Source: Acetobacter sp. AN02
GTDB lineage: Bacteria; Pseudomonadota; Alphaproteobacteria; Acetobacterales; Acetobacteraceae
Direction: 5' to 3'
DNA: 64,000 nucleotides
Assembly (NCBI RefSeq): GCF_029759835.1
Contig: NZ_JAJJND010000002.1
Coordinates: 1 to 64,000 of the forward strand
Below are positions 20,960 to 61,962 of this stretch, one piece after another. A program made the translations under genes and the position numbers. Position 1 is the first letter of the stretch; each line of letters starts with the position of its first letter. The notes beneath the pieces were generated by a model. The model saw only the letters and a list, made by a program, of their open reading frames with translations. It searched no databases and was not told the origin of the DNA.

Positions 20960-21778
20960 GTGCGGCTGCTGTCACGTCTTTTTCGCAGGAGAAAGCCCCG
21001 GCTTCTGGGGGTTCTTCTGTGTTATAATGACGGGGATATTCTCGCGAACAGCATAGAGGCGCTGCTGGAAAGCGGTCATGAGATCGTGGTCTGGGACCAC
21101 GGGTCCGATGATACGACGCCGCAGGTTCTTGATCGTTATAACAGGTATTTCCGGGAGCGGCGGTTCATTCCGCGTGAGGTTGATTTCTATGGTCTGTATC
21201 AGGCCATGTCTGAAAACCTGCTCCGCAGCCATGTTGCGTCTTTCGACTGGGTGACGTGGCCGGATCAGGATGAGATTCCTGAGGGTCCGGACCGGTCCCG
21301 GCCTTATACCTCCTTTGTGGAGGAGGTTCTGGAATCAGAACACAGCTGGGTGCGGTTTCATAATTTCAATTTCTGGTTCACCTCGGCGGATGATCCTGCT
21401 GTTTCCGACCCGGTAAAGCGTGTCCGGCATTATGCGCTGTTTCCGGACTGTGCGCCGCGCATCCGGGCGTGGCGGGCATCGGCGACCAATATCCGCGTGT
21501 TCAATCACAATCCGCCTGAGGGCACGCCATGGCCTGAGCCGTTCTGTCTGCGGCATTATCCGATGCGGGACCTTGCGCAGATGCGGCGCCGGCTTGAGAA
21601 GGATCGTGCCGGGCTGGAGCGGGACGGTGCGAATTATCATTATGAGAATATGAAACGGGCTGAGCAGCGGCTGATCATTCCGCCTTCTTCTCTGCATCTG
21701 GATGACGGTGTTTCCGACCTTGATCCCTCCCCTGTTTTTAACTGGCGGGAGATTTACGGGCATGGTCCGTCGCGCTGA
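20960..21778 (+). CDS. glycosyltransferase family 2-like protein
   Basis: A 272-residue protein with a GTG start 11 bases after the lipoprotein stop. The fold signature is LGVLLCYNDGDILANSIEALL, IVVWDHGSDDTT and the later WVTWPDQDEIPEG, whose DQD is the probable metal/nucleotide-sugar site. This resembles the Glyco_tranf_2_4 group. A basic N-terminus without a membrane helix suggests a cytoplasmic, membrane-associated enzyme. Acceptor and donor are unknown. The 3' end overlaps the convergent acetyltransferase gene by 41 bp. Confidence 0.8.
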   Translation: MRLLSRLFRRRKPRLLGVLLCYNDGDILANSIEALLESGHEIVVWDHGSDDTTPQVLDRYNRYFRERRFIPREVDFYGLYQAMSENLLRSHVASFDWVTWPDQDEIPEGPDRSRPYTSFVEEVLESEHSWVRFHNFNFWFTSADDPAVSDPVKRVRHYALFPDCAPRIRAWRASATNIRVFNHNPPEGTPWPEPFCLRHYPMRDLAQMRRRLEKDRAGLERDGANYHYENMKRAEQRLIIPPSSLHLDDGVSDLDPSPVFNWREIYGHGPSR

Positions 21779-42875: not shown

Positions 42876-44222
<1,347 letters not shown>

Positions 44223-44297: not shown

Positions 44298-46280
44298 TCA
44301 GCGCGGCCTTGCCCGCCGGATGATCCGTTTCAGTATCTCAGCCGCACGCGGGCAGCGCCGTGCGATCCGGCGCAGGCCGGAGCCGGCACGCCAGATCGTG
44401 CTGTCCCTGATGATCCGGTTCTCCTGCTCAAGATGGTCGGCCCGCTGACGCTGGGCATCCGAATCGGATAGAGCCGCGCTGAGGGCCTGGTCCCGTTCCT
44501 GAACCAGCCTCTGCATTTCAACGATACGGAGTTCCAGCTGTGTTCTTGCCTCGATCGACGCTCCGTCCGAAAGCGGCTCGTACCAGCGCAGGGGAAAATC
44601 ATTGAAGCGGACACGCTCGGCCGTATTCAGGGGATAGGGGCCATCATTCACCATGACCTGAAATGCGGCTTCCTGCTCCGAATACCGGTCGAGATCGGCC
44701 TGCGTGAGTTTCAGGTCAAAACGCTCCAGCAGGCGCAGGATGATACGGTCGGGTGTCGACAGTGTCCGGTCTGCGGGCGGTGCCGGAAGGGTAATTTTGC
44801 GGATCGACTCCCTGAGGCCGCGGACGATGATGAACATCGCCTCCACGGGCGCCTCTGCCTGCCATTCAAGATCGAAGAACAGGGGGGTGGAGCCGTCCTG
44901 CGGGACGATCAGGTTGAATGGTGTCGCATCAACCAGATCGCCGGTGACCTTCATGTCCGCTGTCAGGTGATCCGCATCTGCCCGGTTCAGCCAGGCGCGC
45001 AGCCAGATATCCGCCCATTCTTCCAGGGTATCGAGGGTCCAGCCTTCGCGAGAGAGGATATCGAGCAGCCGGAACCACCAGCATGGCTGCGCGTGATACA
45101 CCTCCCTGCCCGCTTCGCAGGTCCAGGCGAACGGACTGTCGGATCGGGTGGCAGATGAGGCGGAGGCCGGTGCGAGCGGATGACGTTCCACCAGGATGTC
45201 ATCTTCCTGCGTAAGGAAGCGGGTTTCCTTCACATAAGGCTGCGCGCGGCCGGTGGCATAATGCCAGGCCAGAACGGAAGGGTCTGCGATATCTGCCGGG
45301 AGGGCACTGCCGGAGGCGAGCATGAGGAAGGAGTTTGTCACGTCCTGCAGCAGGCCGTTCCGCGCCATGACCGGCCAGGCTTTCTGAGGCGAGAAGGACG
45401 GACGACGCTCACACTCTCCGGTCTCGGCAATCAGATGTCCGGCCAGAAATCCGCTCTGCCCTGCTGCCCGCGGGGGCAGGACAAGGGCAGGCAGTTTGTA
45501 GTCCGGAAAGGGCATCCAGGGTTCAGTGATCCCTAACCCGGCCTGTGTAAGTGCCTGTGTCAGCTCCGCGCGTCCGAAAGTGACGGCGGTACGCGCGGTA
45601 TAGAGATCATTGATGCCGAACCACGGAATACCGAGGTGGTCTTCCTTTTCTCCAGCCAGATATTTCAGGCCGGTCTGGTTCTCTATCGCGAGAAACAGCA
45701 CGCCGTCCGGTTTAAGAAAGCGGCGGAGATACGCGAGAAAAGCTGCAACGGGATCGGCCTCTTGCGCCCCGAACAGCCTTGCATATTCCAGAACGCCGAC
45801 CAGGACCACCGCATCGAACTTCTGAATCGGCTCAAGCTGCAGAAGATCTCCCGCGATGACATCCATCTGCGGGAATTCCTCTGTCCGCGCCCGCGCGATG
45901 GCAGCCCGGCGTGAGCTGCTCTCAACGGAAACGACCTTTCCGCCCTGCCCGGCCGTGATCTCGCCCAGAAACCGGCTGATCGCGCCGCATCCTGCGCCGG
46001 GTTCAAGAATGGTGCGGGTGGCAAGAAAACCGGCAAACGGGCGGAGCAGGTTCGCCCGGGAAGGAGACAGGTGATAGAGGGATGGCCAGTCCGTGACGGC
46101 GCCACGCAGTTCGGACGAGAACAGCGAGCGGTCTTTCGCATTGCGGACCGCCGTGAGCAGGCGTGTTTCGGTTTCGTCCCCGTCACTGTAGTGATGCGCG
46201 GGCGGAGCGGCTGTGCCGCAATGCAGAACTCCGTTTTCATCCGGCGTGAAAGCGCCGCTGAAAAACTCCGTCACCGGCAT
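44298..46280 (-). CDS. SAM methyltransferase with kinase-like region and C-terminal coiled coil (WbdD-like layout)
   Basis: A 660-residue protein from ATG 46280, one base after the gntK stop. Residues about 60-270 are a class I methyltransferase: SAM loop LEPGAGCGA (92-100), acidic VVSVES, and FDAVVLVGVLEYAR. A middle region has PYVKETRF (Lys351), then DATPFNLIV (451-459) and FFDLEW (469-473), resembling the beta-3 lysine, catalytic loop D..P.N and metal aspartate of aminoglycoside-kinase folds. Residues about 578-626 are a coiled coil, then STIWRAGSGLRRI and a very basic end, like tails of O-polysaccharide proteins. Kinase assignment is inference from motifs. The O9a chain terminator WbdD has this order. 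Confidence 0.7.
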   Translation of the reverse strand: MPVTEFFSGAFTPDENGVLHCGTAAPPAHHYSDGDETETRLLTAVRNAKDRSLFSSELRGAVTDWPSLYHLSPSRANLLRPFAGFLATRTILEPGAGCGAISRFLGEITAGQGGKVVSVESSSRRAAIARARTEEFPQMDVIAGDLLQLEPIQKFDAVVLVGVLEYARLFGAQEADPVAAFLAYLRRFLKPDGVLFLAIENQTGLKYLAGEKEDHLGIPWFGINDLYTARTAVTFGRAELTQALTQAGLGITEPWMPFPDYKLPALVLPPRAAGQSGFLAGHLIAETGECERRPSFSPQKAWPVMARNGLLQDVTNSFLMLASGSALPADIADPSVLAWHYATGRAQPYVKETRFLTQEDDILVERHPLAPASASSATRSDSPFAWTCEAGREVYHAQPCWWFRLLDILSREGWTLDTLEEWADIWLRAWLNRADADHLTADMKVTGDLVDATPFNLIVPQDGSTPLFFDLEWQAEAPVEAMFIIVRGLRESIRKITLPAPPADRTLSTPDRIILRLLERFDLKLTQADLDRYSEQEAAFQVMVNDGPYPLNTAERVRFNDFPLRWYEPLSDGASIEARTQLELRIVEMQRLVQERDQALSAALSDSDAQRQRADHLEQENRIIRDSTIWRAGSGLRRIARRCPRAAEILKRIIRRARPR

Positions 46281-46281
46281 G

Positions 46282-46815
46282 TCAGCCCTGCCTGCCGGCC
46301 GAAAGCTTCGCGAGAACGGCCTGAACGATCTGCTCTGTCGGCATCTCTCCGTCGATGACGAGAGCATGTTCGTCCTGTGCGGGGATTTCGAGCGTATCGA
46401 GCTGGCTTCTGAGCAGTCCCACGCCCATATAGTGGCCGGAGCGATGGATCAGCCTGTCGCGCAGGCGCTCTTCCGGAACATTAAGATACAGAAAAAGCGG
46501 TGTGAAGCCGGGGGATTTGAGGCGCTCGCGATAAACCCGCTTCAGTGCCGAGCAGGACAGGATCGCCCCGTGTCCCTGTGCGTGCATGGCGGCCAGCCAG
46601 TCCCGGCATTTATCCAGCCAAGGCCAGCGGTCCTCATCCGTGAGCGGGATGCCCGCGCTCATCTTTTCCACATTCGCGGCGGGATGAAGCCCGTCTCCCT
46701 CCTGGAAAGACCATCCGAGGGCCTTCTGAAGCGCTTCTGCCAGGGTGGATTTTCCGCTTCCGGAGACGCCCATCACGACCAGCGCACCCGCCGGTTTATG
46801 TACTGATGTGCTCAT
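46282..46815 (-). CDS. gntK: gluconokinase
   Basis: A 177-residue gluconate kinase from ATG 46815. It phosphorylates gluconate to 6-phosphogluconate. The P-loop GVSGSGKST is at residues 16-24; EGDGLHPAANVEKMSAGIPLTDEDRWPWL and SCSALKRVYRE are characteristic. The ATG overlaps the rpiA stop (ATGA). In acetic acid bacteria this is the entry of cytosolic gluconate to the pentose-phosphate pathway. Confidence 0.95.
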   Translation of the reverse strand: MSTSVHKPAGALVVMGVSGSGKSTLAEALQKALGWSFQEGDGLHPAANVEKMSAGIPLTDEDRWPWLDKCRDWLAAMHAQGHGAILSCSALKRVYRERLKSPGFTPLFLYLNVPEERLRDRLIHRSGHYMGVGLLRSQLDTLEIPAQDEHALVIDGEMPTEQIVQAVLAKLSAGRQG

Positions 46816-58696: not shown

Positions 58697-58798
58697 GTCT
58701 TTCCTCCGGATGCTCCGCGGCTTTCCTGCCATATAACGGACGGCAGGCGTCGGAGCCGCCTTCTTTAAGGCGATGTGCCAGGCTATAGGATCAGGGTG

Positions 58799-60823
58799 AT
58801 GACATCGCAACGCCCTGAGACCATGCCCCTGATGATACGGCTGCGGCCGTATAACCGGATCATGGTCAACACCCTGCTTGACGGCCTTGTCGCGGCACTG
58901 GCCGCTCCGGTCGCGCGCTGGCTTGCCGCGCCGCAGGATGGGCTGATGCATCCGCTGTGGTTTGTTGCGGGCGGCGCCATCACTCTGGTCGTCAGCGGCG
59001 TGCCATTCCGGATGCCCCAGCAGTACTGGCGCTTTTCCGGCGTGGCCGATCTGGTGCGCATCGCGGGCGCCTCCGTGGCCAGTTCAGTGCTTTTTACGGT
59101 GATGCTGCTCGTGACCGGGTTTCCCCTGCCCGGCCCGACCTTTCCGTTCATCTATTTTCTGCTGCTGGTCGTCTCTCTCGGCGGACTGCGGCTGGCCTAT
59201 CGTCTGCTTTATGGCATCGGCACGCGGGCTGCAGTGCAGAAGCCGGTCGTTCTGGTCGGGGCCGATACGGTGGCCGATCTGTTTCTGCGGGCCATCAGCC
59301 GCAATCCGGCTTCCGGACTGAAAGTGACGGGGCTGATCGGCCAGGGGACCAATCAGCGCGGCCGTCGTATCCACAACGTGCCGATTCTCGGGCACGTCAA
59401 CGATATCGCCGCGATTCTGGAAACGATGAAACTGTCCGGCACGCTTCCTGACAGCATCGTGCTCACCGAGCCTGATTTCCGGGGGGAAGGACTTCAGCGC
59501 GTGCTGGAGGCTGCGGAAACCTACTGCGTGGAAGTGCGCCGCGCGCCTGTTCTGACGGCTCTCACCCCGGTCGATGAGATTTCTCTGCGGCCGGTGGCGC
59601 TAGAAGATCTGCTGAACCGTCCGCAATGGCCGCTGGACCGGGCAGGAATGGGACGTCTGATCCGTGATCAGGTCGTTCTGGTGACCGGGGCCGGCGGGAC
59701 GATCGGCTCCGAACTGGCCCGCCAGGTGGCCGGTTTCGGGCCGGAGCGGCTGATTCTGCTGGATCACGGTGAGTTCGCACTGTGGCAGATCGATCTGGAA
59801 CTGGGCGAGAAAGCTCCCGGCATTGCGCGCGAGGTCGTGATTGCCGATATCCGGGACGCCGGCCGCGTCGATGAGATCATGGCCCGCTTCCGCCCGGCTC
59901 TGGTGTTCCACGCCGCCGCACTCAAGCACGTTCCTCTGGTGGAGGGAAATCCGTGCGAGGGTCTGCTGACCAATATTGCCGGAACACGGATCGTGGCCGA
60001 TGCGGCGGCGCGTTGCAGCGTGCGGGCGATGCTGCTGATTTCCACGGACAAGGCCGTCAATCCTTCCAGCATCATGGGGGCCTCCAAACGCGTTGCGGAA
60101 ATGTACTGCCAGGCGCTGGATGTGGAGGCTCTCGCATCCGGCGTCGCCGGGGCGATGCGCTGCGTAACCGTGCGGTTCGGCAACGTGCTGGGTTCCAACG
60201 GCTCCGTGGTGCCGCTGTTCCGCCATCAGCTTGCCCGGGGCGGTCCGCTTACGGTCACGCATCCGGAAATCCGGCGCTATTTCATGACCGTTCCGGAAGC
60301 GGTCGGGCTGGTGCTTCAGGCCATGGTGCGCGGCCTGAACGGCAGCACGACGGAGAGTACGGAGGACGAGCGCGGACAGAAAACTGACGAGGCGCTGCGC
60401 GAGGGCGGGATTTTCGTGCTCGATATGGGCAGGCCGGTCAGGATCGTGGATCTTGCCCGCCGGATCATCCGTCTTGCCGGTCTGAGGCCGGATGAGGATG
60501 TGGAAATCCGCTTCACCGGCCTGCGCCCCGGGGAGAAACTGTTCGAGGAACTGTTTCACGGCCGGGAAGCGCCCGTCCCGAGCGACGCAGCCGGACTGCT
60601 TGTCGCCACACCGCGTCTGGTCAGTCGCGAGGGTATCACCTCCGCTCTGGAAAGGATCACCGGCCTGGCTCATGACGGCAATGCGTCAGGGGCGCTTGCC
60701 GAACTGGCTCGTCTCGTGCCCGAATTCGCCCATAACCCGACCGGTCAGGATCACGGCCCTCTCCCGTCAGACGGGTCACCTGAACACGGCTTCTTAACAG
60801 ACAGGGAACAGAAAGCCTCATGA
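58799..60823 (+). CDS. membrane-bound nucleotide-sugar 4,6-dehydratase/epimerase (CapD/WbpM/PglF family)
   Basis: A 674-residue protein; ATG 58799 is eight bases from AGGA, preferred over GTG 58775. Four N-terminal membrane helices (to about 140), a first Rossmann domain, then the catalytic SDR domain: TGAGGTIGSELA with the glycine loop, AAALKHVPLVE, STDKAVNPSS and the MGASK (Met426, Lys430) that replaces YxxxK in this family. It makes UDP-4-keto-6-deoxy-HexNAc, precursor of bacillosamine- or quinovosamine-type sugars. Coupled to the DegT aminotransferase by ATGA. Confidence 0.92.
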   Translation: MTSQRPETMPLMIRLRPYNRIMVNTLLDGLVAALAAPVARWLAAPQDGLMHPLWFVAGGAITLVVSGVPFRMPQQYWRFSGVADLVRIAGASVASSVLFTVMLLVTGFPLPGPTFPFIYFLLLVVSLGGLRLAYRLLYGIGTRAAVQKPVVLVGADTVADLFLRAISRNPASGLKVTGLIGQGTNQRGRRIHNVPILGHVNDIAAILETMKLSGTLPDSIVLTEPDFRGEGLQRVLEAAETYCVEVRRAPVLTALTPVDEISLRPVALEDLLNRPQWPLDRAGMGRLIRDQVVLVTGAGGTIGSELARQVAGFGPERLILLDHGEFALWQIDLELGEKAPGIAREVVIADIRDAGRVDEIMARFRPALVFHAAALKHVPLVEGNPCEGLLTNIAGTRIVADAAARCSVRAMLLISTDKAVNPSSIMGASKRVAEMYCQALDVEALASGVAGAMRCVTVRFGNVLGSNGSVVPLFRHQLARGGPLTVTHPEIRRYFMTVPEAVGLVLQAMVRGLNGSTTESTEDERGQKTDEALREGGIFVLDMGRPVRIVDLARRIIRLAGLRPDEDVEIRFTGLRPGEKLFEELFHGREAPVPSDAAGLLVATPRLVSREGITSALERITGLAHDGNASGALAELARLVPEFAHNPTGQDHGPLPSDGSPEHGFLTDREQKAS

Positions 60824-61962
60824 CCGCCGATACGGGACATACCGGGCCCATCGCCTTTCTTGATCTTGCCGCCCAGCAGCGCCGGATCGGGCCTGCCCTG
60901 CGGCAGCGGATCGATACGGTTCTGGAGCACTGCCGCTTTGTCATGGGACCTGAGGTTCAGGAGCTCGAAGACCGTCTGGCCGCCTTTGCCGGAGCAAAAG
61001 CCTGTGTGGGCGTGTCGTCAGGCACGGACGCTCTGCAGATCGTGATGATGGCGGAAAATATCGGTCCCGGAGACGCGGTGTTCCTCCCTGCCTTCACCTA
61101 TACCGCAACGGCGGAAGTGCCTCTGGTGCTTGGCGCGACCCCTGTCTTCGTGGATGTCGATCCCCTCACCTTCCAGATCGATCCGCAGAGTCTGCGGCAG
61201 CGGATTGCTGACGTAAGGCGGGCCGGAACGCTCACGCCGCGGGCCGTGACGGGTGTTGACCTGTTCGGCCAGCCTGCACCCTGGGATGAACTACGGGCTA
61301 TTGCGGAGGAGGAGAAGCTGTTTCTTCTGGATGACTGCGCGCAGTCATTCGGCGGTTCGTATCACGGCAGGAAGCTCGGACGGGAAGCCACGGCCACGAC
61401 GCTTTCCTTTTTCCCCTCCAAGCCGCTTGGCGGCTATGGCGACGGCGGTGCGATCCTGACGGATGATGAGGAGCGGGCCGAACTTTACCGCTCCCTGCGG
61501 ACACACGGGGAAGGCAAGACCCGCTATGAAGTTCTGCGGACCGGCATGAACGGCCGTCTCGATACGCTTCAGGCGGCTGTTCTTCTGGCCAAGCTGGACG
61601 GTTTTGAGGAAGAACTGGCGCGGCGTGAGGAGATTGCCCGGGCCTATGATGCAGGGCTGGCCGGTGCCGTCACGATCCCCGGGCGCGTTCCGGATTCCGC
61701 TTCGGCCTGGGCGGTATATGCCGTTCTTCTGAGGGATGAGGCGGAGCGCGGGACCGTTCAGGACCGTCTGAAGTCACACGGTGTTCCGTCTGCAATATAT
61801 TATCCGATGCCGCTGCACCGCCAGCCTGCCTACCGTCCTCATCATGACGGGGCTGCCCTGCCGGTCTCTGAGGATCTTTCAACACGAATCATGGCTCTAC
61901 CGATTCATCCCGAACTGACCGATACCGAGGTGGCCCGCGTGATCGCGGCCGTCCGGGGCTGA
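60820..61962 (+). CDS. DegT/DnrJ/EryC1/StrS family sugar aminotransferase
   Basis: A 380-residue PLP enzyme. Cofactor Lys201 in FFPSKPLGGYGDGG; GVSSGTDALQI and DDCAQSFGG are typical. It aminates a keto-sugar nucleotide, most simply the 4-keto product of the dehydratase whose stop it overlaps. Together they would give a 4-amino-4,6-dideoxy-HexNAc; a 3-amino product is an alternative. Confidence 0.92.
   Translation: MTADTGHTGPIAFLDLAAQQRRIGPALRQRIDTVLEHCRFVMGPEVQELEDRLAAFAGAKACVGVSSGTDALQIVMMAENIGPGDAVFLPAFTYTATAEVPLVLGATPVFVDVDPLTFQIDPQSLRQRIADVRRAGTLTPRAVTGVDLFGQPAPWDELRAIAEEEKLFLLDDCAQSFGGSYHGRKLGREATATTLSFFPSKPLGGYGDGGAILTDDEERAELYRSLRTHGEGKTRYEVLRTGMNGRLDTLQAAVLLAKLDGFEEELARREEIARAYDAGLAGAVTIPGRVPDSASAWAVYAVLLRDEAERGTVQDRLKSHGVPSAIYYPMPLHRQPAYRPHHDGAALPVSEDLSTRIMALPIHPELTDTEVARVIAAVRG

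Follow-up and report, generated by a model that had tools for sequence, protein, structure and literature searches.

What does a 660-aa methyltransferase-containing protein do when its gene lies outside any polysaccharide cluster in the genome of Acetobacter sp. AN02, with only a gluconokinase and an enolase gene as neighbours? An earlier note on the window (the whole 64,000-nucleotide stretch of DNA that was analysed) had read the protein as a capping enzyme of the WbdD type and had coupled it to gluconokinase and the pentose-phosphate pathway. We examined the gene, its predicted structure, its relatives, and its genomic surroundings.

The locus

The open reading frame that the note had placed at 44298-46280, naming no strand, is real and is found on the minus strand; the plus-strand translation of the same interval is interrupted by stops. 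The gene and its neighbours are as follows.

46282..46815, minus strand: gntK, gluconokinase of the GntK/IdnK type (TIGR01313, 182 bits against a cut-off of 113.75)
44298..46280, minus strand: terminator gene, complete CDS, 660 aa; predicted methyltransferase-kinase glycan chain terminator of the ORF6-O7-N family
42876..44153, minus strand: eno, enolase, 144 bp downstream of the terminator gene and its neighbour also in the only other Acetobacter carrier

The gntK gene is the final member of a conserved pgl-rpiA-gntK order. The junction GGCTGACATG reads as TGA (the gntK stop), a single C, and the ATG of the terminator gene, which confirms the reported spacing of one base.

Domain architecture and predicted structure

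The protein comprises, in order, a SAM methyltransferase, a two-lobed domain of about 250 residues, a long helix, and a basic tail.

45507..46280, minus strand: N-terminal class I SAM methyltransferase domain, about residues 1-258 (Pfam Methyltransf_12, 4e-9; conservation; model)
44601..45383, minus strand: two-lobed kinase-like domain, about residues 300-560 (conservation and models; weak Foldseek matches)
44355..44564, minus strand: long C-terminal helix, putative coiled-coil spacer, residues 573-642 (AlphaFold model)
44301..44402, minus strand: STIWRAGSGLRRI motif and basic amphipathic tail, residues 627-660 (similar tail in many relatives)

Pfam recognizes the methyltransferase alone, in which the SAM-site residues are Y31, Y69, G95, G97, E120, and Y166; the middle domain has no match in Pfam or NCBIfam. 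The elements of the kinase-like domain are strands at residues 317-368, a D451-x-x-P-x-N456 loop, and D470-x-E-W. All motifs singled out in the earlier note occur at the residues it gave: LEPGAGCGA at 92, PYVKETRF at 348 (K351), DATPFN at 451 (D451 and N456), FFDLEW at 468 (D470), and STIWRAGSGLRRI at 627.

AlphaFold models of the full-length protein (pLDDT 90.3) and of the middle region alone (pLDDT 91.1) are both confident. Besides the methyltransferase, they show the two-lobed domain, which has four N-lobe strands and a segment resembling a catalytic loop; a helix of 70 residues and a short, basic one follow. A fold search with the middle region, a check that the note had proposed, gave a mixed outcome: the model is two-lobed and the top Foldseek matches are APH-type kinases (APH(3')-Ia and APH(9)-Ia), but these matches are non-significant (best E 0.075, TM about 0.3), as are those to eukaryotic kinases, which rank after the aminoglycoside phosphotransferases. 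The assignment as a kinase therefore leans less on the fold search than on homology to the O7 enzyme, which has been assayed (see below). As to the proposed coiled coil, a helix spans residues 573-642 of the AlphaFold model, but its heptad pattern is weak (9 of 14 a/d positions are hydrophobic, a count equalled in 9 per cent of shuffles). The last 18 residues of the protein carry a net charge of +6.

No defence system was observed, and the one PADLOC match, of model mad2 to the methyltransferase domain only (6e-16; 45678-46055), has the look of generic similarity among methyltransferases. We rejected a phage or defence role, given that this is the sole PADLOC match and that there is no PHROG match.

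The family and its genomic context

Relatives were collected by tblastn and a genome-wide scan, which confirmed 376 loci; the best 80 of the 376 were kept for study. Full-length relatives span many phyla, with identities of about 31-57 per cent, and none was found in a scan of viral contigs. The matches of a broad family search (71 of 300) are nearly all partial and mostly confined to the methyltransferase domain; among these 71, only the window's own gene and a gene of genome G130 are near full length.

Across 83 aligned sequences, D33, W65, E93, G95, G97, G99, E165, Y166, E200, N201, D451, P454, N456, and E472 are invariant, and D470 is conserved in 97 per cent. K351 is kept in 89 per cent of these sequences and is Arg in the closest relative, the other Acetobacter protein, and hence can be called no more than a putative ATP lysine.

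A Wzm-like permease gene and a Wzt-like ATPase gene occur together at 53 of the best 80 loci, and at 49 of the 80 the Wzt gene ends no more than 400 bp upstream of the terminator homolog. Both Wzt proteins tested (loci L034 and L035) have a Wzt_C domain. Many family members (43 of 78) are at least 1000 aa long, leaving room for fused glycosyltransferase modules, and such modules are present in all four long members tested (GT2, GT4, WbsX, and RgpF). A tail resembling S-[ST]-x-W-[RK]-x-x-x-x-[LI]-R recurs in many relatives, and one resembling S-x-SW[RK]-x-x-x-PLR closes many stand-alone members, which accounts for the STIWRAGSGLRRI motif that had drawn attention earlier.

The methyltransferase of Citrobacter braakii plasmid pF217-3 (P0002, locus L035) is a stand-alone protein of similar length (649 aa, 33 per cent identical); its gene, unlike that in the window, is situated between wzm-wzt (with Wzt_C) and glycosyltransferase genes, downstream of dTDP-rhamnose genes. 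The fusion protein of Acidisoma sp. L85 (P0004, loci L031/L039) is about 41 per cent identical over residues 8-569, is likewise encoded away from wzm-wzt, and groups with the Acetobacter pair in the phylogenetic tree (SH-aLRT support of 99), but unlike the window protein it is 1423 aa long and carries C-terminal GT2 and GT4 modules. A recent foreign origin of the terminator gene was rejected: its GC and GC3 match those of its neighbours, and the tree places it with Acetobacter and Acidisoma.

At alphaproteobacterial loci L041, L043, L060, L063, L068, L081, and L091, no Wzm and CBM-type Wzt pair occurs within the fetched stretches. An RgpF-like (rhamnan synthesis) gene is located directly downstream at L063 and L068, both without Wzm/Wzt, and at L043 an ABC ATPase and a 1503-aa multi-glycosyltransferase protein are encoded near the terminator homolog.

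Relationship to Klebsiella pneumoniae O7 ORF6 and to WbdD

The relative with experimental characterization appears to be the N-terminal half of K. pneumoniae O7 ORF6 (ORF6-O7-N). This part of ORF6 combines a methyltransferase with a domain of 223 residues that is unannotated and functions as a kinase; beyond it lie a CBM-like domain, a coiled coil, and a pair of GT2 modules (PMC11231755). The kinase is non-classical and APH-like, related to the aminoglycoside kinase AmiN/APH and unlike that of WbdD (PMC11231755). ORF6-O7 modifies the O-polysaccharide at its non-reducing end, by phosphorylation and then methylation; with the full-length enzyme, a repeat-unit mimic was phosphorylated, and then partly methylated, at O3 of its terminal rhamnose, whereas the D441A substitution abolished this activity in vitro and, in E. 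coli DH5alpha, blocked O7 chains at the surface (PMC11231755). Alphaproteobacterial orthologs have been reported, some of which stop after the coiled coil (PMC11231755), like the window protein.

The residue fingerprint of ORF6-O7, seven active-site residues named in PMC11231755, corresponds in the window protein to Y31, Y69, G95, G97, E120, Y166, and D451, each at least 97 per cent conserved in the 83 sequences. The family member P0003, from a Pseudomonas asturiensis plasmid, has Y28, Y66, G91, G93, E112, and Y158 at the ORF6-O7 numbers, and its D443 is the counterpart, two residues off, of D441. The six SAM-site positions of ORF6-O7 occur at their exact numbers in six family sequences (P0003 and five others). 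Like ORF6-O7-N, the window protein has a methyltransferase, a kinase-like domain that is not annotated by domain libraries, and a C-terminal helix in the same order. Unlike ORF6-O7, it has no room for an Ig-like CBM, lacks the C-terminal GT2 modules, and is encoded outside an exporter cluster; a Wzm/Wzt cluster is the usual context, but not a defining trait, of ORF6-O7-N type terminators. Membership in the family rests on the residue fingerprint together with the common architecture and the common context. The window protein is most likely an O7-type terminator, an enzyme of a kind described only recently, which would extend this type to acetic acid bacteria.

The relationship to WbdD is of a different nature. 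WbdD of E. coli O9a has the domain order methyltransferase-kinase-coiled coil, with a eukaryotic-like kinase (PMC3482155), and the window protein resembles it in domain order and proposed cap chemistry, by analogy only; the best fold matches of its middle domain, weak as they are, are aminoglycoside phosphotransferases. WbdD is absent from the PDB sequence matches of the terminator protein, from the 60 best PDB matches shown for the whole-family profile, from a search of the PDB with the middle-domain profile (E up to 10), and from the 50 best folds; the two profile searches, a check of the kind suggested by the note, did not recover WbdD in these listings. We consider it highly improbable that the protein is a WbdD ortholog, homologous to the O9a enzyme in both domains: the domain order and proposed chemistry agree with such an origin, but WbdD is missing from both the sequence and the fold matches. 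WbdD is instead a functional analog without a detectable sequence relationship. Of the idea of a "WbdD-like capping enzyme", the chain-terminator part is upheld by the family and its genomic context, whereas WbdD as a relative is not borne out by the PDB searches.

Proposed function

The protein is probably a chain terminator of a cell-surface glycan that adds a methyl-phosphate cap. Using ATP, the kinase domain would phosphorylate a hydroxyl group on the sugar that ends the growing polymer on its non-reducing side; the methyltransferase domain would then methylate the cap phosphate using SAM, blocking elongation. The C-terminal helix and basic tail may serve as a spacer and as a membrane or polymerase anchor that fixes the chain length at which capping occurs. 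Homology to K. pneumoniae O7 ORF6 is our basis for inferring that phosphorylation precedes methylation and that the product is a methyl-phosphate. The chain-terminator reading as such draws on the domain order, the conserved catalytic positions, and the occurrence of the family mostly in Wzm/Wzt-type exporter clusters; the missing glycan cluster and Wzt_C domain, the weak fold matches, the change of K351 to Arg, and the weak heptads count against it. It suggests a likely function for a large family that databases label only as "class I SAM-dependent methyltransferase" or "glycosyltransferase".

K351 is replaced by Arg in the closest relative and is lacking from about 11 per cent of the family, which speaks for a distinctly unlikely alternative, namely that the kinase-like domain has lost or changed its activity and that the methyltransferase alone acts on the glycan end. 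The WbdD enzymes of K. pneumoniae O5 and E. coli O8 do add methyl only (PMC11231755). Nevertheless, the window protein retains the Asp and Asn of the catalytic loop as well as the Asp of the metal site, residues that are 97-100 per cent conserved in the family, and the equivalent Asp is essential in ORF6-O7 (PMC11231755).

Linkage to gntK

The terminator gene was found in 2 of 49 Acetobacter genomes, Acetobacter sp. AN02 and G332, the latter judged from an identical protein to be the metagenome-assembled genome (MAG) Acetobacter sp. AS27yjCOA_120, and it is linked to gntK in only the first. In G332, the order is pirin, terminator, eno, and gntK is on a separate contig. At 29 other gntK loci of congeners, gntK follows pgl and rpiA, and at none of them does a terminator gene follow gntK. 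The region upstream of eno varies among congeners; eno is the neighbour common to both carriers, which are two genomes only. The gntK adjacency is peculiar to one species and is not a conserved link. Co-transcription of the terminator gene with gntK in Acetobacter sp. AN02 is plausible as a local arrangement, but the coupling to the pentose-phosphate pathway that had been proposed finds no support beyond this one genome.

The one-base gap to gntK could also be taken to mean that the protein cooperates with gntK in the metabolism of sugar phosphates, where it might modify a gluconate or pentose-phosphate metabolite. We regard this as extremely improbable in view of the 29 congener loci, the different contig of gntK in G332, and the typical location of the family in glycan clusters. 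A gluconokinase partnership was rejected, as the arrangement was seen in Acetobacter sp. AN02 only.

Exporters and the proposed capped glycan

Export in the known O3/O9 and O7 systems is restricted to terminated chains, whose cap is read by a CBM on the exporter (PMC11231755). A profile search did not find a Wzt_C domain in Acetobacter sp. AN02 (a 186-contig assembly), in G332, or in G130; as a control, the model matched 2 of 14 genomes, and it detects the Wzt proteins of loci L034 and L035. A nearby cap-reading exporter was rejected on the basis of this search. The genome of Acetobacter sp. AN02 does carry two exporter pairs.

L126:8532-10285 (contig C114): Wzm/Wzt-type exporter pair, no Wzt_C domain
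L127:7034-8822 (contig C182): Wzm/Wzt-type exporter pair, no Wzt_C domain

The Wzt-like ATPases of the two pairs, in frames of 281 and 321 aa, have the ABC domain only. For both Wzm-like permeases the highest score comes from the galactan-type Wzm model, at a value short of that model's cut-off; 45 of 49 Acetobacter genomes encode permeases like these.

Since a cap reader seems to be absent from Acetobacter sp. AN02, the cap may set chain length only, or its substrate may be another glycan. The first of these readings, in which a terminator, its gene expressed as the tail of the pentose-phosphate operon, is uncoupled from cap-reading export and capping sets chain length alone, draws on the missing Wzt_C domain and the ABC-only ATPases and is rather unlikely. 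If true, chain-length control would be separable from export licensing, the two being linked in E. coli O9a and Klebsiella O7. The second, capping of some glycan, such as a lipid- or protein-linked one, that is not an ABC-exported O-polysaccharide, seems unlikely: the missing Wzt_C domain and the multi-domain glycosyltransferase genes elsewhere in the genome, one set of which adjoins a gene for an RTX-repeat-like protein, speak for it, but the genome has two Wzm/Wzt-type exporters, as do most congeners. The glycosyltransferase regions of the genome contain multi-domain glycosyltransferases, and a clear partner cluster for the terminator was not found among them.

At L160:5061-12740 (contig C102), two large multi-domain glycosyltransferase genes flank the gene of the RTX-repeat-like protein (478 aa). 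This arrangement is present in both Acetobacter terminator carriers (similar genes are found in L165, G332) and possibly serves glycosylation of a secreted protein. Within the window, a plus-strand open reading frame of 272 aa at 20960-21778 has a weak match to glycosyltransferase family 2 (31.5 bits), with no obvious glycan cluster around it. About 12.5 kb from the terminator gene, a plus-strand pair at 58775-61962 consists of a Polysacc_synt_2 (CapD/PseB-like) dehydratase gene followed, with a 4-base overlap, by a DegT/PseC-like aminotransferase gene; this pair probably functions in nucleotide amino-sugar synthesis for a surface glycan.
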